Origin: a virus
Length of the DNA: 40,285 nt
Direction: 5' to 3' (one strand)
IMG/VR virus record: IMGVR_UViG_3300036771_000010
Coordinates: 1 to 40,285 of that record
The notes under the pieces were generated by a model that did no database searches, was not told where the DNA came from, and saw nothing but the letters and a program-made list of their open reading frames with translations. Both the position numbers and the translations under genes were made by a program. Positions 9,111 through 25,299 of this stretch are shown here, in pieces (position 1 is the first letter of the stretch; every line of letters starts with the position of its first letter).

Positions 9111-9387
9111 TTTAAGTATTTATTTTTTAATTTAAAAAAGAGTATATTAAAAGACTCTTTTAAGTATTTATATCTTTAAGCTTTAATAAAAAATTTAAAT
9201 GCGGAGGCATATACCACGTACAGTCAGAACGAGACCATAGACGAAGAAGAGAGAAAACATACAGTAACAAAATGTGTACAGTTGATAGTTGTAGGAGTTG
9301 AAGGCACAAAAAGAAAAAGAGGAAGGAAGATGAACATAGCTAACAGATGAAAGTTATAAGAGAGTAGAGTTTATAATATCTATTTAG

Positions 9388-9454
9388 TACGAAAGGTTGG
9401 TGGTGGGGTAATTGGTGGTGAAGAGAGTAAGTGATAACGAACGTCGATTACTAT
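9388..9454 (+). repeat. dispersed repeat R1 (5' half)
   Basis: This copy holds the G-rich 5' half: GAAAGGTTGGTGGTGGGG, ATTGGTGG and GATAACGAACGTCGATTACT. It resembles R3 at 11304 and R4 at 12503. The 3' half (TTTATTTGAAG to CATAGAAACG) is absent. Confidence 0.65.
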
Positions 9455-9868
9455 CTAAGACTGCCCCAAGGATTCTGGGGACGCCTAGCGTCTTAGTGCT
9501 GCCCCACGGACTGCTGGAACGCTTAGGCACTATAGCGCTGCCTCTGCTGTATCAGGTACGCCCTAAGCCCTGTCCTGCGCCACGCAAATGCTCGATGTCT
9601 ACAGTCCGTGTATATCGTATTATTCGTATATTGCAAGTAATGTCCTGCCCCAAGGATATCGTGATATCGTGATATCGTGTTATTGTGATTTAGTGTTATA
9701 GCCCGTATATATCGTATTATTCGCTTATTAAGAGTATGTGTTTTAGTATATTGTGCTTTGTGTATATATTAAGTGTGTAATATGCGTATATCGTATTATT
9801 AGTATACTAAAAGGAAATTATATAGGAGAAAGAGAATATTAGAACATTATATTATATTTATATTAAAG

Positions 9869-9960
9869 ATAAGGGTTGTGGTGGGGGAACTGGTGGTGAA
9901 GCGATACCTCGCTCTTCTTTATATGAAGCAAGTTTCTACCTAGACCCCATAGAAACGCCT
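9869..9960 (+). repeat. dispersed repeat R2 (both halves)
   Basis: The 5' half reads AAGGGTTGTGGTGGGGG and CTGGTGGTGAAGCGA. The 3' half reads CTTTATATGAAGCAAGTTTC, then CCCCATAGAAACGCCTAGG. It ends about 40 bases before the promoter at 10002. Confidence 0.7.
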
Positions 9961-10001
9961 AGGGCTAGGGATATACCCCCACTCTAGATAGGGAAACGTC
10001 C

Positions 10002-10030
10002 TTGACTTTCACCCCCACCCGTGATAAAAT
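10002..10030 (+). promoter_or_regulatory. early promoter P1
   Basis: TTGACT (10002-10007), 17 bases, TAAAAT (10025-10030), preceded by AACGTCC and with CGTGA just before the -10, which makes an extended -10. It serves the genes at 10128-11068. Confidence 0.9.
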
Positions 10031-10127
10031 AAGTTCAAGAGGAAGAGGGCACCACACCAGAGCAACACACGGACGGTACCCACGACCTACACAAAAAACT
10101 CAAGAGCGAAAAGGAGATTGATTGATT

Positions 10128-10529
10128 ATGGCTAAAGCGAAAAAGGTAGACGCAGTGAAACACGTAGAGGAAAACGGATTCCCAGAGGTAGGGCACTTCA
10201 CAGAGAAAAAAGACCTACAAAAGTTCTACAAACAACTTGATGATGTTGTCCTAGGGGAGTGGATTGCCCTAGAAGGTCTAGAGTTCAAACCTTGTGAGGA
10301 TTCTGAGGCTATCAACCGTATGAGAATGTGTATGGCTATCCTGTACGCACACTTCCCAAAAGAGCCTTCTGCTAAGAAAAAAGCTAAGTACGCAGACTAC
10401 AGTATGGAACAGCTTATGAAGATGTGCCTAGACAACGACGTGGCGGTGGAGTACACAGAGTCTGAACAGATTATGCGTATGAGAACTATCATGGCGCTAC
10501 GTGCAGCAGGTCACATCGAGAAAGCTTAG
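10128..10529 (+). CDS. early protein with two SAP/HeH-like repeats (paralog 1)
   Basis: This 133-residue protein is one of three paralogs in the window. After a basic start (MAKAKK) comes FPEVGHF and a KFYKQL helix. Two helix-loop-helix units of about 40 residues then follow. The first is near 40-78, with INRMRMCMAI in its second helix; the second is near 92-130, with QIMRMRTIMAL at the same place. A lysine-rich linker (KKKAKY) lies between. The layout resembles SAP or HeH/LEM domains, which bind DNA or proteins, but this is judged by eye. I start at the ATG at 10128; a TTG at 10122 is closer to AAGGAG but has no paralog support. First gene after promoter P1. Confidence 0.82.
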   Translation: MAKAKKVDAVKHVEENGFPEVGHFTEKKDLQKFYKQLDDVVLGEWIALEGLEFKPCEDSEAINRMRMCMAILYAHFPKEPSAKKKAKYADYSMEQLMKMCLDNDVAVEYTESEQIMRMRTIMALRAAGHIEKA

Positions 10530-10604
10530 GGTTGCTAGGCTACCCCCTACGGGGGGTATCCCATGGAGCTTGTGTAAGCTACCTAGACAAAAGGAGTGGT
10601 TAGT
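10530..10604 (+). promoter_or_regulatory. two-hairpin intercistronic RNA element, copy 1
   Basis: GTTGCTAGG is followed by hairpin 1 (TACCCCC/GGGGGTA, 10541-10558) and hairpin 2 (GGAGCTT/AAGCTaCC, 10565-10583, with one bulged A). The ribosome binding site AAAGGAGTGG follows at once. Hairpin 1 has no T-run, so it is not an ordinary terminator. Confidence 0.8.
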
Positions 10605-10925
10605 ATGGGTAAAACTAAAACGTACGTCCCTGAGTGGGTTATTCTGGAGGAGAACTCACCTAGTGAGATGCACTACTTCCGTATGGTGGGCAGTGATGCT
10701 CGTGAGTATGAAGGTACGGAAAGTATCTGGGTGGTTATCCTAGACCAAGTGCAGGAGGATGAGTTCTGTGCCTCTATCGTAGCAGTGAACGACTCGTTAG
10801 TGGGCAGTGTAGTACCGTTGATGAGTACTGGAGTAGTGAGTGAGCAGAGTGCTAGGAACAACCTAGCGTACCTCATCAGGTACGCTCGTAAGGGTATCGT
10901 GAGTATCGGAGGTGGAAGCCTGTGA
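10605..10925 (+). CDS. hypothetical early protein
   Basis: This 106-residue protein begins MGKTKTYVPEW and seems to be a small alpha/beta fold with a beta hairpin (IWVVILDQ) and a C-terminal helix (SARNNLAYLIRYARKG). I do not recognise it. The ATG at 10605 lies eight bases after AAAGGAG within intercistronic element copy 1. Its stop overlaps the GTG of the next gene. Confidence 0.72.
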   Translation: MGKTKTYVPEWVILEENSPSEMHYFRMVGSDAREYEGTESIWVVILDQVQEDEFCASIVAVNDSLVGSVVPLMSTGVVSEQSARNNLAYLIRYARKGIVSIGGGSL

Positions 10926-11068
10926 GAACGATTAAACGAGTGCTAGTGGTAACAGGAGCGTGTACTCTCCTTTACCTAGCTTGTAACTTTGTGTATACAG
11001 CAGTGACGTGGACACACCCTGGAGTAGAGAAGCAGTTAGAAGCGTATCAAGACACCTACAGTAAGTAG
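10922..11068 (+). CDS. small single-span membrane protein
   Basis: This 48-residue gene starts with GTG overlapping the previous stop (GTGA), so it is probably translated by coupling. The product reads MRTIKRVLVV, then a hydrophobic span of about 18 residues containing two Cys, then a polar tail ending DTYSK. The basic N-terminus suggests an N-in membrane anchor. The stop lies inside the terminator stem. Small membrane proteins of this kind in early phage regions often act on the host envelope, but nothing here shows a target. Confidence 0.68.
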   Translation: MRTIKRVLVVTGACTLLYLACNFVYTAVTWTHPGVEKQLEAYQDTYSK

Positions 11069-11080
11069 GTGTCTATTTTT
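11051..11080 (+). terminator. rho-independent terminator
   Basis: A perfect 9-bp stem GACACCTAC/GTAGGTGTC (11051-11073) with loop AGTAA is followed by TATTTTT. It includes the stop codon of the membrane protein gene. Confidence 0.9.
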
Positions 11081-11454
11081 GTGCGTTTGTGGGTGTAGGG
11101 CATCTTTTAGCCCGTTTTCGCATCTTTGTGAGTGGAAGGGCAAAAGGGTTCAAACCTGCTTCAACAAGAAATTTGAGTACAAAAGTTGTAGCTCAAAAAT
11201 CCTGTTTGGTGTGTTGTTCGGGTGTGAATTTCGTTTCAAAATCAATCAGAACCATTTGTATATGAAAGAGAGAGAAGAGAGAAATTCACATACAAAAGAT
11301 ATATGAGCGAAGGGTTGTTGTTGGGTATATTGGTGGGGAGAAAGTAATTGATAAGCGAACTCCGATTGCTTTATTTGAAAGGAGTTTGTAGGTAACCCTC
11401 CTAGAAAGCCCAACAGGGCTAGGTGTATGCCCCATCCTATATGAGTAAACGTCC
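11081..11454. other. non-coding spacer with repeats
   Basis: No gene is supported. The 11079-11306 frame has no ribosome binding site and an unlikely composition. A segment near 11145-11185 (AAGGGTTCAAA, then GAAATTTGAGTAC) recurs in similar form near 12447-12485, so the spacers between early operons share ancestry. Repeat R3 and promoter P2 follow. Confidence 0.55.
11304..11410 (+). repeat. dispersed repeat R3 (both halves)
   Basis: It carries GAGCGAAGGGTTGTTG, ATTGGTGGGGAG, GATAAGCGAACTCCGATTGC, TTTATTTGAAAGGAGTTTG, and CCCTCCTAGAAAGC. It aligns over its whole length with R4 at 12503 and ends about 45 bases before promoter P2. Confidence 0.75.
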
Positions 11455-11483
11455 TTGAGTTATCGACACACCCGTGATATAAT
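11455..11483 (+). promoter_or_regulatory. early promoter P2
   Basis: TTGAGT (11455-11460), 17 bases, TATAAT (11478-11483), with AAACGTCC directly before the -35 and CGTGA before the -10. It is the best consensus copy in the window and serves 11553-12341. Confidence 0.93.
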
Positions 11484-11552
11484 TTATTCAAGGGGAGCGG
11501 GTCACACCGACTCCTACAAGACCAGCCCACAGAGGCATAGGAGGAATATGAT

Positions 11553-11963
11553 ATGAGTAAAAAAGAGAATATCATCAACGGTAAGGTAGACGCTATGGAA
11601 TGGATTACTAGTAATAATGGGTATCCAGAGGTAGGTATCTTCGAGGATAAGAAATGGCTACAAAAATTCTATAAGCAACTGGATGTGTCTATCCTAGAGG
11701 ATTGGTGTCAAGTAGAAGGATTAGTATTCACACCTAATGATAACGAACAAATTCATAGAATGAGAGTATGTATGGCTATCCTATACTTCCACTATCCTAA
11801 GGAGCCATCTACTAAGAAGAAAGCTAAATACTCGGACTATACTATGGAGGCTCTTATGACACTCTGCTTAGATAACGATATAGCAGTAGAGTTTACAGAT
11901 AGCGAGCAGATTATGAGAATGCGTACTATTATGGCACTACGTGCGGCTGGTAAGATTCAGTAA
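11553..11963 (+). CDS. early protein with two SAP/HeH-like repeats (paralog 2)
   Basis: This 136-residue protein is a close paralog of the 10128 product. It shares YPEVG, KFYKQLD, RMRVCMAI, PSTKKKAKYSDY and RMRTIMALRAAG. The two internal units are very similar to each other here: DNEQIHRMRVCMAIL near residue 66 and DSEQIMRMRTIMAL near 116, each preceded by a helix that begins S/T-x-E. AGGAGG lies eight bases before the ATG. It heads the P2 operon, and intercistronic element copy 2 follows it. A DNA-binding role is inferred from the SAP-like layout. Confidence 0.85.
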   Translation: MSKKENIINGKVDAMEWITSNNGYPEVGIFEDKKWLQKFYKQLDVSILEDWCQVEGLVFTPNDNEQIHRMRVCMAILYFHYPKEPSTKKKAKYSDYTMEALMTLCLDNDIAVEFTDSEQIMRMRTIMALRAAGKIQ

Positions 11964-12035
11964 GTTGCTAGTACTCCCTCTACGGAGGGGGTATCATGGA
12001 ACCTATTGGTTACCTAGATAAGAGGAGTGGTAAGT
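11964..12035 (+). promoter_or_regulatory. two-hairpin intercistronic RNA element, copy 2
   Basis: GTTGCTAG leads to hairpin 1 (TACTCCCTC/GAGGGGGTA, 11972-11993, one G-U pair) and hairpin 2 (GGAACC/GGTTaCC, 11998-12014, bulged A). Then comes TAGATAAGAGGAGTGG. Hairpin 2 has A-T where copy 1 has G-C, which is a compensatory change. Confidence 0.82.
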
Positions 12036-12341
12036 ATGAGTAAGTTAGTAGTAGCAGTTGAGCCATTTGGATATTATGATTTAGATGCAGGTGACTTCAT
12101 ACGTGAGAGTGAGTATGTATCCTTACTGCTAGTGAGTGGTGAGGGTGAGATACCTGAGGTTGACTACCCAGATGTTAAGGCTATCGTGTATCGAGTGCGT
12201 GGGTTAGACCCTCTAGATGAAGAGATAGATGACGTAGAGACAAGTATGAGTGAGTGGATAAGTGCCACTACTGAGTGGTATACGGAGCGTGGATTTGAAG
12301 TAGAGACACTGCCTCCTATAGCTATAGTATCACCTATGTAA
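12036..12341 (+). CDS. hypothetical acidic early protein
   Basis: This 101-residue, strongly acidic protein begins MSKLVVAVEPF. It has a run of acidic residues at about 62-70 (DEEIDDVE) and two short hydrophobic strands. I do not recognise it. Acidic small early phage proteins often mimic DNA or bind host enzymes, but there is no direct sign of that here. The ATG lies behind AGAGGAGTGG of element copy 2, and a terminator follows the stop by ten bases. Confidence 0.7.
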   Translation: MSKLVVAVEPFGYYDLDAGDFIRESEYVSLLLVSGEGEIPEVDYPDVKAIVYRVRGLDPLDEEIDDVETSMSEWISATTEWYTERGFEVETLPPIAIVSPM

Positions 12342-12351
12342 GTGAGTGTAA

Positions 12352-12378
12352 GGGAGTACCAATTGGTACTCCCTTTTT
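12352..12378 (+). terminator. rho-independent terminator
   Basis: GGGAGTACC AATT GGTACTCCC is a self-complementary 22-base sequence (12352-12373) followed by TTTTT. It ends the P2 operon. Confidence 0.9.
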
Positions 12379-12502
12379 CTATGCCTTCTTCTGCTCCTAT
12401 GTGAGTGTTATAGCGAGTGTGTAGGTTGATTTCTCTCAAAGGTGAAAGGGTTCAAAGATTGAAGCAGGAGAAATTCGAGTAAGTGAGTGGTAGAACTTTT
12501 TG

Positions 12503-12610
12503 TAGAGCGAAAGGTTGGTGGAGGGGATGAATTGGTGGGAGGAGATTCTGATGAGCGAACCGAGTTGCTTTAATAGGAAGTGAGTTTGTAGGTACCCCTC
12601 ATAGAAACGA
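12503..12610 (+). repeat. dispersed repeat R4 (both halves, no promoter)
   Basis: It carries GAGCGAAAGGTTGGTGG, ATTGGTGGGAGG, GATGAGCGAACCGAGTTGC, TTTAATAGGAAGTGAGTTTG and CCCCTCATAGAAACG. It sits between two convergent terminators and, unlike R2 and R3, has no promoter after it. Confidence 0.72.
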
Positions 12611-12613
12611 GCA

Positions 12614-12648
12614 TAAGAAAACCCTATATACGTTTGTGTATATAGGGT
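12614..12648 (-). terminator. rho-independent terminator
   Basis: A perfect 11-bp stem ACCCTATATAC/GTATATAGGGT (12621-12648) is followed on the minus strand by TTTCTTATG. It ends the leftward operon that starts at promoter P3. Confidence 0.85.
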
Positions 12649-12657
12649 GTATATTAC

Positions 12658-12876
12658 CTAGTAGTCTGGGTTATTCATGTCTATACCTAGTGCGTCCTCT
12701 ATAGCCTTAGCTACTAGGTGTTGGTCTATATCCTCTAGTAAGTTACTAGCAGCCCTATCCACATCATACTGTGTCATACTAGGTACATGGAAGCCCTGCT
12801 CCCTACAGTTCTTAGCCTCTGCTACTACCTTTTCCTTTAGCCATTCTAATACCTGCTCGTCTGTAATAGTATCCAT
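12658..12876 (-). CDS. hypothetical small early protein
   Basis: This 72-residue acidic, helical protein begins MDTITDEQVLEWLKEK and ends NNPDY. Three amphipathic helices can be drawn. I do not recognise it. The ATG shares its first base with the upstream stop (TAATG), and GGAGG lies upstream inside that gene. The neighbouring 76-residue product has a comparable build. Confidence 0.65.
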   Translation of the reverse strand: MDTITDEQVLEWLKEKVVAEAKNCREQGFHVPSMTQYDVDRAASNLLEDIDQHLVAKAIEDALGIDMNNPDY

Positions 12877-13106
12877 TATAGTAAGTCCTCCTCTATTTCG
12901 AATCTACTAGCCATATCAATAGTAACCTGTTCATGTACGCCATTTAGGAAGTCTATTACTAGGCATTCAATATCCTCTTCTGTATACTTGATAGGGTCTT
13001 TACCCTTACCTACTAGCCAGGCACTAGTACCCTCTATATTACCACGTATCTCCTTTGCTATCCATTCCTTTACCTCTGGTGTTACTGTTCCATATAGGTT
13101 TATCAT
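12876..13106 (-). CDS. hypothetical small early protein
   Basis: This 76-residue protein begins MINLYGTVTPEVKEW. The start is the ATG at 13106, behind AGATAAAAGGAGAGAG; longer frames run back through the hairpins of the intercistronic element. The product is mostly helical with no known motif. The pattern of a short N-terminal helix followed by an E-E-D-I-E-C-L helix is shared loosely with the gene that follows, so the two might be diverged copies. Confidence 0.66.
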   Translation of the reverse strand: MINLYGTVTPEVKEWIAKEIRGNIEGTSAWLVGKGKDPIKYTEEDIECLVIDFLNGVHEQVTIDMASRFEIEEDLL

Positions 13107-13178
13107 AGCCAACTCTCTCCTTTTATCTGTGAGTATAGGTATTCCAGGAGTAGCCCTGCGTACAAGGCTACCTAGCAA
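13107..13178 (-). promoter_or_regulatory. intercistronic RNA element, diverged copy 6
   Basis: On the minus strand TTGCTAGG leads to GTAGCC/GGCTAC (hairpin 1), then TGGAATACC and AGATAAAAGGAG. The order and the ends match the other copies, but hairpin 2 is weak. Confidence 0.55.
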
Positions 13179-13181
13179 TCT

Positions 13182-13478
13182 CTATACGTGAGTAGTACAT
13201 CCTAGGAACACTTTAGTTGGTAAGTATAGTATACTATTAGGGTCATCTACATATACGAAGCGTATCCAGACACTATCCTTAGGGTGAGTGTATTCAGCTT
13301 GGCTAAATAGACCCTGATAGTCCTCTGGTACCTCTCTGTATCTAGAGATGCCTAGTACCTTGACTGCGCCCTGCTCCATATCCTGTAGCCCATTAGCGAA
13401 TGTAGGATATATATTCCACCAGCTATCTGGTTTTACCTCTAGGGTAATGTGTGCCTCTGCGCCACCTAGTTCGTTCAT
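13182..13478 (-). CDS. hypothetical early protein
   Basis: This 98-residue protein begins MNELGGAEAHITLEV and looks beta-rich with several aromatic residues (DSWWNIYPTF). No family is recognised. AAGGGAGAGG precedes the ATG. A hairpin CTAGGGGC/GCCCCTAG (13505-13523) lies just upstream and may play the same part as hairpin 1 of the intercistronic elements. Confidence 0.68.
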   Translation of the reverse strand: MNELGGAEAHITLEVKPDSWWNIYPTFANGLQDMEQGAVKVLGISRYREVPEDYQGLFSQAEYTHPKDSVWIRFVYVDDPNSILYLPTKVFLGCTTHV

Positions 13479-13526
13479 ATTAACCTCTCCCTTATGTATA
13501 TAATACTAGGGGCTATGCCCCTAGCT

Positions 13527-13703
13527 CTATTTAATAATAGTATCCGCTTTACAACTTGGACATATGTGGATAGTATCTACTTCCTGCTTACTGATGCTAC
13601 CTATCATATCCATGCTGTATCCCTCACCTAGGAACTCATCCGCAGTAGCTCTATCCCATGATAGGGAGGGGCTAGAAGCCCCACAGTAGGTACACTTATG
13701 CAT
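13527..13703 (-). CDS. small zinc-ribbon-like protein
   Basis: This 58-residue gene starts one base after the upstream stop, with GAGGAGG in front. The product begins MHKCTYCGASS and has a second pair CPSC near residues 48-51, so four cysteines in a CxxC-x40-CxxC order can hold one zinc. Small zinc ribbons of this kind in phages may contact RNA polymerase or nucleic acid. There is no further sign of function. Confidence 0.75.
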   Translation of the reverse strand: MHKCTYCGASSPSLSWDRATADEFLGEGYSMDMIGSISKQEVDTIHICPSCKADTIIK

Positions 13704-13704
13704 A

Positions 13705-14010
13705 CTACTCTGCCTCCTCTGCTAGCTCTAGCTTTAGGATAGGTACGCCTTCGATACCCTCTATGTTTAGCCCTAGTGTCTCCTTATATGGAACGTCTAG
13801 GCTATTCATGAGTAGGTGGTACACAGTACCCCAACTAGTATAGTCCCTACCATCGGCTATAACACCGAATGTACAGATCATATCTTCCGATACATCTACT
13901 AGCTTAGTACCGTCGTTAGAGGTATCCTTTACTACCTGCTCCTTATCTACATCTATGATAGCCACCTTAGTACTACAGTCTACATTCGATTTATATGTTA
14001 CCTTTATCAT
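13705..14010 (-). CDS. hypothetical early protein
   Basis: This 101-residue protein begins MIKVTYKSN and ends in an acidic helix (LKLELAEEAE). Short strands alternate with turns. I do not recognise it. TAGGAGGAGATAGTA precedes the ATG, which lies about 50 bases downstream of promoter P3, so it is the first gene of that operon. Confidence 0.7.
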   Translation of the reverse strand: MIKVTYKSNVDCSTKVAIIDVDKEQVVKDTSNDGTKLVDVSEDMICTFGVIADGRDYTSWGTVYHLLMNSLDVPYKETLGLNIEGIEGVPILKLELAEEAE

Positions 14011-14061
14011 TACTATCTCCTCCTAGCCTCTAGTAGGAGCACCCCTGCTCCTCTTGAAAAA

Positions 14062-14090
14062 ATTATACCACGGAGCAGGGGAAACATCAA
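14062..14090 (-). promoter_or_regulatory. early promoter P3
   Basis: On the minus strand: TTGATG (14085-14090), 17 bases, TATAAT (14062-14067), with AACGTCC before the -35 and CGTGG before the -10. It serves the genes from 14010 down to 12658. Confidence 0.92.
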
Positions 14091-14110
14091 GGACGTTCCC
14101 CTACCCTAGG

Positions 14111-14509
14111 CTATCTAGGGTTTCTCACATAAGGGTTGTCTATGAACAATAGGTAGATGTCCTTATCGTTCTGCTTACGTATAATAGCTCTATTATCATC
14201 GCCCTTACGTTCTACCTTATTAACCTCCCACACACTATAGTGCTCATATAGAGTCTTACCAGGGATATCCTTACTCTGCCATACATCCTCTTGTAGCATA
14301 GCTCCTGTAGGTATTACTACATTTACAAGGTCTTCTACCCAGTCATCTGGATACTCCTCAGGTAGCGCTAGTAGGTTAAACTGCTCCCCATCCTCTACAA
14401 ACTTAGTTAGACCTGTAGCCATAGCACGCTTTACAAACTCTGCTACCTCTGTAGCTGTAGCACGCTCACTATATAGGTATGCTACTGGTATCATTTTCTT
14501 ACTCAACAT
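14111..14509 (-). CDS. hypothetical early protein
   Basis: This 132-residue protein begins MLSKKMIPVAYLYSER. The ATG at 14509 is eight bases after AAAGGAG of element copy 3; an in-frame GTG nine bases earlier overlaps the site itself. The product seems to be an alpha/beta fold with a C-terminal strand (DIYLLFIDNP). No motif is recognised. Last gene of the P4 operon. Confidence 0.68.
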   Translation of the reverse strand: MLSKKMIPVAYLYSERATATEVAEFVKRAMATGLTKFVEDGEQFNLLALPEEYPDDWVEDLVNVVIPTGAMLQEDVWQSKDIPGKTLYEHYSVWEVNKVERKGDDNRAIIRKQNDKDIYLLFIDNPYVRNPR

Positions 14510-14580
14510 ATATACCACTCCTTTTATCTAGGTAGCTATTAGCTCCATAAGGAAGGCGATACTATCGCCTGCCCTAGCAA
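14510..14580 (-). promoter_or_regulatory. two-hairpin intercistronic RNA element, copy 3
   Basis: Minus strand: TTGCTAGG, hairpin 1 (GGCGAT/ATCGCC, 14555-14569), hairpin 2 (GGAGCT/AGCTaCC, 14531-14546, bulged A), then TAGATAAAAGGAGTGGTATAT before the ATG. The hairpin 1 stem is unrelated in sequence to the other copies but keeps the pairing. Confidence 0.82.
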
Positions 14581-14581
14581 C

Positions 14582-14902
14582 CTATAGCTGACTCATATGG
14601 TCTGCAAACTCCTCTACAGGGAAGTACTCATAGTGGTCATCGTCCTCACGTTGCTTAGGGTCTGTATACTGGAACCCTACCCACTGCCAGTTCTGTATAT
14701 CGCTAGGGTCGTCTTGGAACTGCTCCCATGCATACAGGTCGATATACTTAGGTAGCTCAGATGTAGGTACAATCTTCTTAACCTCTACCTCACCACTATC
14801 CAGTCCTAGGTATCCATAGCTAGTATTGACACGACATATTGTACCTACCTTAATAGTTCTTTCTACACACACCGTTACTGAAGTTAATTTAGCTGTACTC
14901 AT
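14582..14902 (-). CDS. hypothetical early protein
   Basis: This 106-residue protein begins MSTAKLTSVTV and has a beta-rich first half with GTICRV and GYLGLDSGEVEVKK, which resembles a small SH3-like barrel. An acidic, aromatic second half follows (WQWVGFQY). I cannot name a family. The ATG follows AAAGGAGTGGTATATA of element copy 4. Confidence 0.68.
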   Translation of the reverse strand: MSTAKLTSVTVCVERTIKVGTICRVNTSYGYLGLDSGEVEVKKIVPTSELPKYIDLYAWEQFQDDPSDIQNWQWVGFQYTDPKQREDDDHYEYFPVEEFADHMSQL

Positions 14903-14975
14903 TATATACCACTCCTTTTATCTAGGTAGCTCTTATGTAAGCTCCAGGATACCTACCCCTGAGGGTAAGTACTAG
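14903..14975 (-). promoter_or_regulatory. two-hairpin intercistronic RNA element, copy 4
   Basis: Minus strand: TGCTAG, hairpin 1 (TACTTACC/GGTAGGTA with one G-U pair), hairpin 2 (GGAGC/GCTaCC, 14925-14945, bulged A, longer loop), then TAGATAAAAGGAGTGG and the ATG. Confidence 0.8.
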
Positions 14976-14979
14976 CAGA

Positions 14980-15291
14980 CTACATATCTTCTTCTAGGCA
15001 CACTGTATATACTGATACCTTAGTGTCGTTCTCTAGGGTAACGTATGTACCTGGAGATACAGCTCTCTTAATATCTGCTATATCCCTAGCAGTAAACTGT
15101 AAAGGTTCTGTAGCTACCCACGTGTCTAGGTAGTTATCTCTTACTACGTGGCTGTAGCCAGCCTGGATATACGGTATAACCTGTTGTAGGGTACCACCAA
15201 ACGTTTCGGTAGCCTCCCCTAGTATAAGAACGTTTACCACTCCTACCTCTACAGGGTAAGCTTCCTGTACTGCCTCTCTAGATACTGTCAT
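14980..15291 (-). CDS. hypothetical early protein
   Basis: This 103-residue protein begins MTVSREAVQEAYPVEVG. Helical and strand segments alternate (VVNVLILGE, QQVIPYIQAG, VSVYTVCLEEDM). I do not recognise it. AGGAGGAAGATAAT precedes the ATG, about 60 bases after promoter P4. It is the first gene of a three-gene operon whose later genes each sit behind an intercistronic element. Confidence 0.7.
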   Translation of the reverse strand: MTVSREAVQEAYPVEVGVVNVLILGEATETFGGTLQQVIPYIQAGYSHVVRDNYLDTWVATEPLQFTARDIADIKRAVSPGTYVTLENDTKVSVYTVCLEEDM

Positions 15292-15349
15292 ATTATCTTC
15301 CTCCTAGTGTTGTAGTCTGGTTGACGTTGTTCCCGTCCCCCGTAACAAA

Positions 15350-15378
15350 ATTATCGCACGGAGGGGAGAAAATCTCAA
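15350..15378 (-). promoter_or_regulatory. early promoter P4
   Basis: Minus strand: TTGAGA (15373-15378), 17 bases, GATAAT (15350-15355), with AACGTCC before the -35 and CGTGC before the -10. Further upstream TATAGGGTCAGCC is shared with promoter P5. Confidence 0.9.
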
Positions 15379-15420
15379 GGACGTTGGCTACTGGTATCCT
15401 AGTTACGGGCTGACCCTATA

Positions 15421-15480
15421 GCGTGGGAGTGTTTTATTTGAAGCGATTTTCTACCTACCCTCCATAGAGACGTCTAGGCA
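15421..15480 (+). repeat. dispersed repeat R5 (3' half)
   Basis: TTTTATTTGAAGCGATTTTC, ACCTACC, and CCTCCATAGAGACGTCTAGG match the 3' half of R2 to R4. It lies upstream of the leftward promoter P4 but keeps the plus orientation. Confidence 0.68.
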
Positions 15481-15481
15481 T

Positions 15482-15503
15482 AAAAATAGCCCCATGTAGG
15501 GGC
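15482..15503 (-). terminator. rho-independent terminator
   Basis: GCCCC/GGGGC (15489-15503) with loop TACAT is followed on the minus strand by TATTTTTATG. It ends the operon that starts at promoter P5. Confidence 0.8.
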
Positions 15504-15507
15504 GGTA

Positions 15508-15849
15508 TCAGTCTAGATTATATGTACCTGGTCTACAGAAGTAGTACCATGCTTCATAGTAGTAGGATAGGCTATCATGGGTGCGATTCATTAGGGCTAG
15601 ACCTTCATAGTGAGACATATAGAACTCTGTCCACTTAGTATGATAGTGCTCTAGGCACTGTTGTAGGAGTTTAGCACTATCTTTAGTTAGCATGTCTTGT
15701 ACATTAAGCTCATCTAGGATAGTGTTACACTCCTCTAGGTAGATAGGACAGCTATCCTCCCCACGTCTAATCTCTTGTATACGCTCCTGTACAAAGCCTA
15801 CTACCCATGTCATTACTTCTTCTCTAGTATACATCTCTTTCTTAGCCAT
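15508..15849 (-). CDS. hypothetical early protein
   Basis: This 113-residue protein begins MAKKEMYTREEVMTW and is all helical with many aromatic residues near the end (SYYYEAWYYF). Nothing identifies it. A purine-rich AAGGGAGCGG site precedes the ATG. It is the last of five genes of the P5 operon and is followed by a terminator five bases after the stop. Confidence 0.68.
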   Translation of the reverse strand: MAKKEMYTREEVMTWVVGFVQERIQEIRRGEDSCPIYLEECNTILDELNVQDMLTKDSAKLLQQCLEHYHTKWTEFYMSHYEGLALMNRTHDSLSYYYEAWYYFCRPGTYNLD

Positions 15850-15869
15850 TTATATCCGCTCCCTTAGTA

Positions 15870-16073
15870 TTAGTATTCACTACTATGCTTATAACCATTA
15901 CCACGCCGTATGACATTATATGCACTCTTATCTTGGGTATTATTACCCTCGAAGGTAGCTAATGCGTAATCTGTGAGTTCCTTATCCTTTATAAACTCCC
16001 TCATACGACCCATAGACTTGTATGTCTTATGCCCCTTTAACCCATTCTGTGAGTACTCTACATTTAATAACAT
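15870..16073 (-). CDS. hypothetical small basic early protein
   Basis: This 67-residue basic protein begins MLLNVEYSQNG and contains a KTYKSMGRMREFIK helix. The ATG shares a base with the previous stop (TAATG), so translation is probably coupled. No family is recognised; the charge would allow nucleic-acid binding. Confidence 0.65.
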   Translation of the reverse strand: MLLNVEYSQNGLKGHKTYKSMGRMREFIKDKELTDYALATFEGNNTQDKSAYNVIRRGNGYKHSSEY

Positions 16074-16384
16074 TAGATATTCACCACCAGTACGTGTAGG
16101 AAGGTAACGTCAATGTAGAATTCCTCATACACTGATACTGTGACGCCATGAGTACTTATATCCTCCGTATGAGTGAGTGGTAGGTCATCTAGGGCGGGTA
16201 TCTCGTTCATATGGTCTGCGTGTGCCCATACAGTCATCATATTATTCTCGTGCATATTAGGAGGCACTAGGTACATATCCCCTTCTATGTTCTCCCACTC
16301 TACACACTGCATAGTTAACTTTAAGGCTATCTCCTCCATTACTTCAGTAGGTAGCAATTTGTTATTTACCAGTACACTAGTCAT
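16073..16384 (-). CDS. hypothetical early protein
   Basis: This 103-residue protein begins MTSVLVNNKLLP and is acidic, with several Met-His pairs and a C-terminal hydrophobic strand (TFLHVLVVNI). The start overlaps the stop of the 142-residue gene. No motif is recognised. Confidence 0.66.
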   Translation of the reverse strand: MTSVLVNNKLLPTEVMEEIALKLTMQCVEWENIEGDMYLVPPNMHENNMMTVWAHADHMNEIPALDDLPLTHTEDISTHGVTVSVYEEFYIDVTFLHVLVVNI

Positions 16385-16812
16385 TATAGAGTCCCCCTTA
16401 CTATGCGCTCGATAGTACCACTGATTTGGTTATCTACCTCTGCTCTATACTGTCCTGGATTAGTGGATATACCTGCATCTACTTGCTCCTTGACACTATC
16501 CCAGCTTATACTCATATCACTAACCTTACCCCATATACCATTTACCCTATTAGGGCAGTCAGGGTCACTACCTACTATTATACCCTCGCTATCTATAACA
16601 AGGTTATCACCCTCAGTGAACACAATACAGTACTGACCTAACTCTAGGTCGGGTATCTCTACCTTAGGTAGTTGTTCCTCTAGGAGGGCTACCATCTCTT
16701 CTACCTTGTAGATATCACTATCAGTGGCTACCCCATGATACTTAACTCCTTCTAGTACGCTCTTAAGAGCGTCTAGGTTTGATACTAGTCTATTAATATG
16801 GTAATCGTTCAT
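16384..16812 (-). CDS. hypothetical early protein
   Basis: This 142-residue protein begins MNDYHINRLVSNLDAL, with a helical first 50 residues. A beta-rich part with GQYCIVFTEGDNLVI follows, and then a third, polar helical section. I start at the ATG at 16812, eight bases behind AAAGGAG of element copy 5. It is the second gene of the P5 operon and directly follows SAP-like paralog 3. Confidence 0.68.
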   Translation of the reverse strand: MNDYHINRLVSNLDALKSVLEGVKYHGVATDSDIYKVEEMVALLEEQLPKVEIPDLELGQYCIVFTEGDNLVIDSEGIIVGSDPDCPNRVNGIWGKVSDMSISWDSVKEQVDAGISTNPGQYRAEVDNQISGTIERIVRGTL

Positions 16813-16885
16813 ATATACCACTCCTTTTATCTAGGTAACATATAATGTTCCAGTGCTACAGCCCCCGTAGGGGCTATGCTAGCAA
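16813..16885 (-). promoter_or_regulatory. two-hairpin intercistronic RNA element, copy 5
   Basis: Minus strand: TTGCTAG, hairpin 1 (AGCCCC/GGGGCT, 16859-16876), hairpin 2 (GGAACAT/ATGTTaCC, 16834-16851, bulged A), then TAGATAAAAGGAGTGGTATAT before the ATG. The stem of hairpin 2 differs from copy 1 at paired positions only. Confidence 0.83.
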
Positions 16886-16888
16886 CAC

Positions 16889-17683
16889 CTATGCTAATAG
16901 TCCAGCTTCACGTAAAGCCATGATAGTGTACATGCGTAGGATATTTTCGTTATCACCTTTAGGCTCTCTTACCTCTACATCGTTCTCAATAGCCATTGCT
17001 AGTAAGTCCTCTGTAGATAGGTGACCATACTTAGCTTTCTTCTTACCACTAGTCTTCTTAGGGAAGTGGTGGTTACTGATAGCCATGCACACTCTCATAC
17101 GATTGATACCAGGGTTATCGTTAGCCTTCCACTCTAAGCCTTCAATATCAGCCCACTCCATAACCTGCTCCATAGATAGGCGCTTGTAGAACTTCTTGAT
17201 ATCGTCGATAGAGTCAAAGTGTCCTACTTCAGGATACTCTACTTCCTGACCTGCTAGGTCTTCCTTAACCTTAGGAGCCTTAGCCTTAGCTTCTGGCTGT
17301 TTAAGTTTCTTAGCCATAGCTCTCCAGTCTGCTACAGGCTCTTCAGTAGTTAGAGCTTCCTTAACCTCTTCTACAGGAGCAGGTACTTCCTCTTCAGTAT
17401 GTACCTCTTCCTCAATAGGCTCCTCTTCTAGAGCTAGTTCCTCCTGCTCTTCCTCTACTGGAGTAACTACTTCCTCTTCTACCACTGTTTCCTCTACTAC
17501 CTGCTCCTCTACTAAAGTAGTCTCTTCCATATTAACATCCTCCTTAGTATCTTCTGCTTCTACAACCTCTACCTCTGGATACTCGCCAGCTAGGATACCC
17601 TTCTTAGTTACCTTCATACCAAGGATAGCTCCTACCTCTTTAACTGTTACCACTGTTTCCTCACCGTTTACTAGATATGCCAT
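16889..17683 (-). CDS. acidic protein with C-terminal SAP/HeH-like repeats (paralog 3)
   Basis: This 264-residue protein has four parts. Residues 1-40 are a small domain (MAYLVNGEE, then EVGAILGMKVTKKG). Residues about 42-120 are very rich in Glu and Val (VEEEVVTPVEEEQ). A basic linker follows (KKLKQPEAKAKAPKVK). The last 115 residues are a paralog of the 10128 and 11553 products, with YPEVGHF, FYKRLSMEQ, INRMRVCMAI, SGKKKAKYGH and NILRMYTIMALREAG. The ATG lies behind AAAGGAG; the frame upstream of it runs into promoter P5. The acidic part could mimic DNA or act as a spacer. Function unknown. Confidence 0.82.
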   Translation of the reverse strand: MAYLVNGEETVVTVKEVGAILGMKVTKKGILAGEYPEVEVVEAEDTKEDVNMEETTLVEEQVVEETVVEEEVVTPVEEEQEELALEEEPIEEEVHTEEEVPAPVEEVKEALTTEEPVADWRAMAKKLKQPEAKAKAPKVKEDLAGQEVEYPEVGHFDSIDDIKKFYKRLSMEQVMEWADIEGLEWKANDNPGINRMRVCMAISNHHFPKKTSGKKKAKYGHLSTEDLLAMAIENDVEVREPKGDNENILRMYTIMALREAGLLA

Positions 17684-17759
17684 AATTATCGTCTCCTTTA
17701 TTCTCGAATATTTGTTGAGTGGGATTCCCTTGTGGGGTGTGCCCCTCTCGCTTGAAGCA

Positions 17760-17788
17760 ATTATGTCATGGTGAGGTGAGGAAGTCAA
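17760..17788 (-). promoter_or_regulatory. early promoter P5
   Basis: Minus strand: TTGACT (17783-17788), 17 bases, CATAAT (17760-17765), with AACGTCC before the -35 and ATGA before the -10. It serves the operon from 17683 to 15508. Confidence 0.9.
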
Positions 17789-17869
17789 GGACGTTTTGTT
17801 ACTCTAGCCTACTCTACTGGCTGACCCTATACGGTTTTGATGTGCTACTGATGTAACCTACGTAGGACG

Positions 17870-17916
17870 CAAAGAAAAAATAAAAAAGGAAGAGATGCGG
17901 TTTCGCTATCTCTTCC
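17870..17916 (-). terminator. rho-independent terminator
   Basis: GGAAGAGAT/ATCTCTTCC (17888-17896 with 17908-17916), extended by GCG/CGC, is followed on the minus strand by TTTTTTATTTTTTC. It separates the 17970-19502 genes from promoter P5. Confidence 0.9.
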
Positions 17917-17925
17917 CTAGTTCTT

Positions 17926-17972
17926 TTCCTTTATTGGAACTGATTTTCTAGCTAACCCTCATAGAAACCCTA
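17926..17972 (+). repeat. dispersed repeat R6 (3' half)
   Basis: CTTTATTGGAACTGATTTTC, AGCTAACCCTCATAGAAACC matches the 3' half of the other copies. It runs up to the stop codon of the 84-residue leftward gene. Confidence 0.65.
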
Positions 17973-24654: not shown

Positions 24655-24957
24655 TTATTTCTCTCCCTCTTGTAGTTTTTTCATGTATAATTTGTAAATC
24701 TTAGATACCTTAGAGATACTAGACCCACTAGAGAATCCTACGATTCTTACTGCTGGATTATGTGCGTGTTCTAATTCATCGTTGTATGTATTACGGAGAA
24801 AGTTAAGTCTTGCAGTAAAGTTCTCCTTAGGGTCAATAATAAGTTGTGGTGCTGGGTGTTCTGGCATTACTACTAATAGAGCCATCCATTCTGCTCCTTC
24901 TATCATTGCTGAACGGATACATACAATTAAGTCTTCCTTACTATTTTCTAGTTTCAT
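24655..24957 (-). CDS. hypothetical protein
   Basis: This 100-residue protein begins MKLENSKEDLIVCI. It has a helix, a strand (WMALLVVMPEHPAP), then helices, ending YKLYMKKLQEGEK. No family is recognised. GGGGGAGAGGATTAG precedes the ATG. It precedes the P-loop gene by one base, so the two probably act together. Confidence 0.66.
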   Translation of the reverse strand: MKLENSKEDLIVCIRSAMIEGAEWMALLVVMPEHPAPQLIIDPKENFTARLNFLRNTYNDELEHAHNPAVRIVGFSSGSSISKVSKIYKLYMKKLQEGEK

Positions 24958-25038
24958 CTAATCCTCTCCCCCTTTAATACTTAGAGCCTTAGACCCTCTA
25001 TAATACTCACCCCCTAAGGGGTAAGCATGTAACAAAGT

Positions 25039-25299
25039 CTACTTCTTCTCTAGGTTACGCAACACATTAATTTCTAGTGCTATCCACAACAAACCAAAAG
25101 TTACCACTACTGCTACATGTCTTATCATCTGCATAATAGACTCACTTGACAGTTGGGTAGCCTGCATAGCAGACTGTGCATCTCCTACTCTAGTGTTGTA
25201 GATATCTATCATGTCCTTAACATTACCCAAGTATATAAACAACATTAGTAGTGATGATATCCGTATTGCCAACGGAATATACTTGATGACTCTTTTCAT
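25039..25299 (-). CDS. two-span membrane protein
   Basis: This 86-residue protein has a basic N-terminus (MKRVIKYIPLAIRI), a first hydrophobic span (about 10-26), a polar middle rich in Gln and Ser (AMQATQLSSES), and a second span (about 61-80) before a charged tail. This shape is that of a small inner-membrane protein, for example a holin-like or exclusion protein. No lysis gene is adjacent, so holin is only a possibility. GGGGGTATAGTT lies before the ATG. Confidence 0.7.
   Translation of the reverse strand: MKRVIKYIPLAIRISSLLMLFIYLGNVKDMIDIYNTRVGDAQSAMQATQLSSESIMQMIRHVAVVVTFGLLWIALEINVLRNLEKK

Follow-up and report, generated by a model that had tools for sequence, protein, structure and literature searches.

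The closest described setting for the element studied here is the early mRNA of the phages SP82 and SPO1. A 1983 study by Panganiban and Whiteley, cited in PMC12502629, reports in its title that Bacillus subtilis ribonuclease III (RNase III) cleaves SP82 early mRNA, and SP82 5′ regions stabilise mRNA in B. subtilis (PMC11805744; PMC7509114). The GenBank record of the SPO1 early region (AF031901; L020 in our set) annotates six 'RNAse III site' features, and RS-A to RS-D among them have, exactly or nearly, the sequence GGTTGYTAGT-hairpin-ATGGAGCC and then a GGCTACY-like strand. We analysed the whole 40,285-base IMG/VR virus record IMGVR_UViG_3300036771_000010, here called the window, in which an RNA element with a variable hairpin recurs between early genes. 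Judged by homology, each copy is very probably an RNase III processing site of the SP82/SPO1 early-mRNA type, which ties the window phage lineage to a classic, little-followed system.

The window phage is SPO1-like (Spounavirinae) by sequence. Its terminase shows up to 77% identity to terminases of SPO1-type Bacillus phages, and its early region, at about 9–18 kb, corresponds to the SPO1 host-takeover module and is homologous to AF031901.

Homology of the element to the annotated SPO1 sites

We compared the copies with two covariance models, R1, which comprises 45 sequences, and a blind model, R2, which comprises only SPO1 RS-A to RS-D and their orthologs, without any window sequence. The seven best matches of R2 on the window are exactly the seven copies listed below, with c1–c5 and c7 at E-values from 1.6e-13 to 3e-4. 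Because a model from the SPO1 sites alone finds them, we place the window copies in the SP82/SPO1 RNase III site family. A processing site was one function suggested in the preliminary description of this DNA, and the blind model gives that suggestion a concrete form, as homology to SPO1 sites annotated for RNase III.

c1: 10518-10599, + strand; between the gene at 10122-10529 and the ATG at 10605; R1 72.4 bits (match 10518-10596); R2 35.6 bits, E 6.9e-8
c2: 11951-12030, + strand; between the gene at 11553-11963 and the ATG at 12036; R1 78.7 bits (match 11951-12027); R2 55.6 bits, E 1.6e-13
c3: 14515-14594, - strand; between the gene at 14582-14902 and the ATG at 14509; R1 61.7 bits (match 14518-14594); R2 33.9 bits, E 2.1e-7
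c4, the CTGCTAG variant: 14909-14992, - strand; between the gene at 14980-15291 and the ATG at 14902; R1 69.1 bits (match 14912-14992); R2 35.6 bits, E 6.8e-8
c5: 16818-16899, - strand; between the gp44-like gene at 16889-17788 and the ATG at 16812; R1 59.3 bits (match 16821-16899); R2 22.7 bits, E 3.1e-4
c6: 13117-13192, - strand; between the gene at 13182-13478 and the ATG at 13106; R1 57.2 bits; R2 12.8 bits, E 0.18
c7, diverged (TTGTTAC.. TAGAG..CTCTA): 24970-25049, - strand; between the genes at 25039-25299 and 24655-24957; R1 27.3 bits, E 2e-5; R2 26.9 bits, E 2e-5

Six copies are strong (57–79 bits with R1) and the seventh is diverged, all between early genes. The preliminary description had located the element on the message strand at six places, and R1 recovers it at every one (57.2–78.7 bits). 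Its count of five clear copies and one diverged needs revision: the copy at 13107 that it called weak (c6) is by model score a strong member, yet lacks a stable second hairpin, and the diverged copy is an additional one, c7, which it had missed. Likewise, the TTGCTAG that it gave for each copy does not hold for c4, which reads CTGCTAG. Orthologs of c7 score 25–34 bits in four relatives of about 139 kb (G001–G004); its position lies outside the early cluster.

The placement of the copies agrees with that of the SPO1 sites, between early genes of the terminal-redundancy module; promoter and terminator scans predict that these genes are co-transcribed. Each of the seven window copies has its motif 1–3 nucleotides (nt) after the end of the upstream gene's stop codon. 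A shared tail, ACCTAGATAAAAGGAGTGG, occurs five times with at most three mismatches, against 0.01 occurrences expected in shuffles. R2 also finds two SPO1 copies that carry no RNase III annotation, at AF031901 4102-4178 (+), upstream of gene 44, and at 10524-10600 (-), between genes 58 and 57.

Fold, covariation and competing helices

The RNAalifold consensus is one long imperfect rod of about 20 base pairs (bp), composed of two stems, P1 and P2. P2, the variable hairpin 1, has 9–10 bp. P1 is the lower stem, in which GGAGCYnnn pairs with the last codons and the stop codon of the upstream gene, and the two stems are separated by an internal loop, UGCUAG opposite UGGA, that hardly varies. A rod of hairpin and lower stem around an internal loop is thus present, as in an SP82/SPO1 RNase III site. 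The GGAGCY strand can also pair with RGCUACC, leaving a bulged A, to form a further hairpin, P3. In c1, the P1 5′ arm is followed by TTGCTAG at 10532, hairpin P2, TGGAGC..GCTACC and the Shine-Dalgarno (SD) sequence; in c6, the predicted fold keeps the rod form while P3 is not stable.

Because P1 and P3 both use the GGAGCY strand, one excludes the other: P3 is an alternative to P1, not a co-existing helix, and copy-specific pairing supports both at the helix level. The two-hairpin anatomy first proposed for the element is therefore half right, in that hairpin 1 covaries strongly whereas the second hairpin, P3, competes with the lower stem of the consensus fold. The exchange of G-C for A-T that was noticed in this second hairpin is real; at column pair 53–68 most rows have G-C, and copies 2 and 5 have A-U.

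Pair counts, compared with slid and shuffled controls, favoured P2 strongly, P1 clearly and P3 weakly, and with a phylogeny-preserving null four P2 pairs reached E < 0.05. Swapping arms among 14 paralogs weakened the pairing of all three helices (P1, p = 5e-5; P2, p = 5e-5; P3, p = 1.5e-4). The P3 signal comes from the window lineage (p = 5e-5); in the SPO1 lineage, where the strand hardly varies, p = 0.18. A control pairing of the P1 5′ arm with the right arm of P3 showed no copy-specific pairing. P1 dominates the thermodynamic ensemble of most copies, c1 and c2 excepted.

Two mutually exclusive helices, each with helix-level support, are also what a translation switch would show. Such a switch would use the UACC strand, when it is outside P3, to mask the SD sequence by pairing with GGUA or with the SD sequence itself (P4), so that P1 plus P4 would be the off state and P3 the on state; the pairings UACC/GGUA, UUACC/GGUAA, ACUC/GAGU and AAAUC/GAUUU can indeed be drawn in several copies. 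However, when arms were swapped, a copy's own C-strand paired with its SD sequence and spacer no better than a swapped one (z = +1.6 across all families, z = +0.3 in the window lineage), the SPO1 lineage gave only a modest P4 signal (z = -2.0), and cutting is predicted to make the SD sequence only modestly more accessible, with a loss of accessibility in several copies. P4 was rejected on this permutation test, and with it the tested version of the translation control that had been proposed for the element; we consider a switch of this kind very improbable.

The internal-loop strands hold the most conserved letters of the element, as would be expected if a phage or host RNA-binding protein recognised the loop and processing were absent or secondary. 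The title of PMC10531801 describes SPO1 Gp49 as an RNA-binding protein, which we count in favour of this explanation. However, one would expect an invariant internal loop in a rod of about 20 bp just as much if the element is cut by RNase III, and the homologous SPO1 sites bear an RNase III annotation, so that we regard protein binding as the principal function as very improbable.

Several observations weigh against assignment as RNase III sites. The c6 match is not significant on its own in R2, where the first chance match follows at E = 0.21. Two of the annotated SPO1 sites, RS-E and RS-F, fall outside the family and are matched by neither R1 nor R2. The annotation in AF031901 may itself rest on similarity to SP82, and cutting at the window copies is something we infer. 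At the level of single base pairs, neither P1 nor P3 is significant with the phylogeny-preserving null (best P1 pair, E about 0.6; best P3 pair, E about 17), and in predicted full-leader ensembles the probability of P1 is only 0.07 in c1 and 0.02 in c2.

Proposed processing of the early messages

If the copies are RNase III sites, the rod would lie inside a polycistronic early message and be cut by host RNase III. We name the host enzyme because no phage-encoded RNase III was found; a search of seven phage records (the window record and six relatives) for an RNase III domain returned none. The cut would most likely fall in or near the internal loop and release, from the upstream message, a downstream one starting close to GGAGCY. 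The latter would carry the strong polypurine AAAAGGAG, which may serve both as ribosome-binding site and as stabiliser. On the freed downstream RNA, GGAGCY could refold with RGCUACC, placing the P3 hairpin near the new 5′ end. In simulated cut products that start at the letter before UGGA, P3 is the best fold in roughly half of the families, and since it is so in just that fraction, we put forward P3 after cutting only as a proposal. Translation may also act on the rod: the stop codon of the upstream gene lies within the P1 5′ arm, so that a ribosome terminating there would be expected to disturb rod formation.

The element at gene-replacement junctions

The gene-exchange comparison covered the window and five relatives (L032, L033, L036, L037 and L038). 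At c1, c2 and c5, in the window stretches 10518-10610, 11951-12040 and 16810-16899, the gene 5′ of the element belongs to the same family in all six, while the gene after it differs. Identity to the relatives is 81–98% upstream and 92–100% within the element; just past it, identity falls to 51–59%, the level of random pairs, in 12 of the 15 comparisons. For c5 in the window and L038, identity is 97% upstream of the element, 100% within it and 55% beyond it, with random pairs at 54%. Where one gene directly follows c1 in the window, two relatives, L033 and L038, have an extra small gene, with an element of its own, inserted between c1 and that gene. At c3 in two relatives, the flanks are conserved (88–93%) and the element between them is different (68%). 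Because homology between relatives often ends there, the element with its ribosome-binding site marks junctions of early-gene replacement, a coincidence that suggests how early regions gain and lose host-takeover genes.

The same drop in homology would follow if the element were mainly a recombination boundary, a repeat kept for the swapping of small early genes, with its RNA fold incidental. A pure repeat would keep its letters, though, and the P2 stems differ between copies while their pairing is kept; moreover, the c3 element was swapped for a differently lettered one between conserved flanks. Swapping is more easily understood as a consequence of a portable processing site joined to a ribosome-binding site, and we attach little credence to the repeat as the primary function. 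Returning to RNase III processing, we tentatively picture a two-state RNA, whose parts together are possible rather than probable: a terminating ribosome could delay cutting of the rod, the cut could free the strand for a protective 5′ P3, and the site together with the ribosome-binding site could act as a joint for exchanging early host-takeover genes. One strand with two copy-specific partners offers a testable idea about the fate of an RNA end after an RNase III cut.

Early operons, promoters and repeats

Five early operons are predicted in the window, each with at least one copy of the element. Upstream of them are early promoter-like sites:

10002-10030, + strand: upstream of the c1 operon; TTGACT-17-TAAAAT with TG; repeat family D6
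11455-11483, + strand: upstream of the c2 operon; repeat family D6
17760-17788, - strand: upstream of the gp44-like gene and c5; repeat family D4
15350-15378, - strand: upstream of c4 and c3; repeat family D4
14062-14090, - strand: upstream of the c6 operon; repeat family D4

The scan found no enrichment of promoter-like sites over shuffles, and the support for these five is their repeat context. Terminator-like sites were placed at operon ends and none at the six early-region copies. A strong G+C-rich hairpin between genes might otherwise be taken for an intrinsic terminator or attenuator; the element has no T-run after its hairpin. We give a terminator almost no weight, in agreement with the earlier statement that the element is not a plain terminator, and no terminator-like site overlaps any of these six copies.

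The promoter-like sites sit in repeated units of 48–76 nt with a constant ACGTCCTTGA start, and further long, diverged repeats (GGTTGTGGTGGGG...; TTTGTAGGTAACCCTCCTAGAAA) lie upstream of the promoter units:

9977-10052, 11430-11505, 14050-14097, 15338-15385 and 17748-17795, both strands: promoter-bearing repeat units
9363-9426, 9841-9904, 11349-11407, 12549-12607 and 17909-17967: long diverged repeats

SPO1 gp44 is an RNA-polymerase inhibitor. Homologs of SPO1 gp51 and of the C-terminal part of gp44 are encoded next to three of the element copies:

16889-17788, - strand: gp44-like gene, whose C-terminal part shares homology with SPO1 gp51 and with the two genes below
10122-10529, + strand: stand-alone gp51-domain gene
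11553-11963, + strand: stand-alone gp51-domain gene

The gp51 domain thus forms the C-terminal part of the gp44-like protein and occurs in three copies in the window phage. Each of the two stand-alone genes leads an early operon.

Distribution

Among SPO1-type B. subtilis phages and close IMG/VR relatives, all those to which the model was applied contain copies, about 6–8 per genome when terminal-repeat duplicates are set aside, nearly all in the early module; with blastn, the RS-C sequence is present in other SPO1-type records. Loss of the element in close relatives that keep the genes, which would have counted against the original claim, did not occur. Among more distant Spounavirinae, EalM-132 and SBSphiC have no copy and LysYB1 gives only a weak match of 16.5 bits. 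EalM-132 keeps gp44/gp51 homologs (42–52% identity to the window gp51-like protein). An IMG/VR contig that carries a 43%-identical gp51 relative has no copy. A strict SPO1-type pattern had no matches in 84,980 bacterial and archaeal genomes; three IMG/VR contigs (L063–L065) fit a loose pattern and not the model, and were set aside as chance. Rfam release 15 gave no match above the gathering score, and weak chance matches only, in the window, SPO1, SP8 or one relative. The present work supplies a calibrated model for this family, which is missing from Rfam, together with the two SPO1 sites that the SPO1 record leaves without annotation.

Comparison with known systems

Repeated inverted-repeat elements just 5′ of many small-gene starts are also found in cluster K mycobacteriophages, as start-associated and extended start-associated sequences (PMC3203893). 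Those are 17-bp inverted repeats of conserved letters, of unknown function and unrelated sequence, whereas the window stems covary and show homology to RNase III sites. Compared with the description in PMC3203893, the window element does not belong to them, its stem letters differing between copies.

The early mRNA of T7 likewise carries RNase III sites (R1.1 type), stems in a phage early pre-mRNA that is matured when Escherichia coli RNase III cuts them (PMC8708148). One difference is that the E. coli enzyme leaves uncut those B. subtilis targets that were tested (PMC8708148).

The SPO1/SP82 sites share with the window copies the core (GGTTGCTAGT, a 9–10 bp hairpin, ATGGAGCC and GGCTACY), the rod fold and the place between early genes of the host-takeover module. 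In SPO1 RS-B and RS-D (L020 5411-5500 and 10715-10807), the element is separated from the ribosome-binding site by a second perfect hairpin (TGAGTAAGTCCT...). Differences are that the window stems have other letters, that three window copies have C for A before UGGA, and that the CTAGATAAAAGGAGTGG tail is more uniform among window copies. The gap to the upstream stop codon, 1–3 nt in 7/7 window copies, is at most about 2 nt at RS-C and RS-D of AF031901, and RS-A and RS-B have gaps of about 20–50 nt. Elements of this kind were already known; what is new is the corrected fold, the competing copy-specific hairpin, the extra copies in both the window and SPO1, and the coincidence with junctions of gene swapping.

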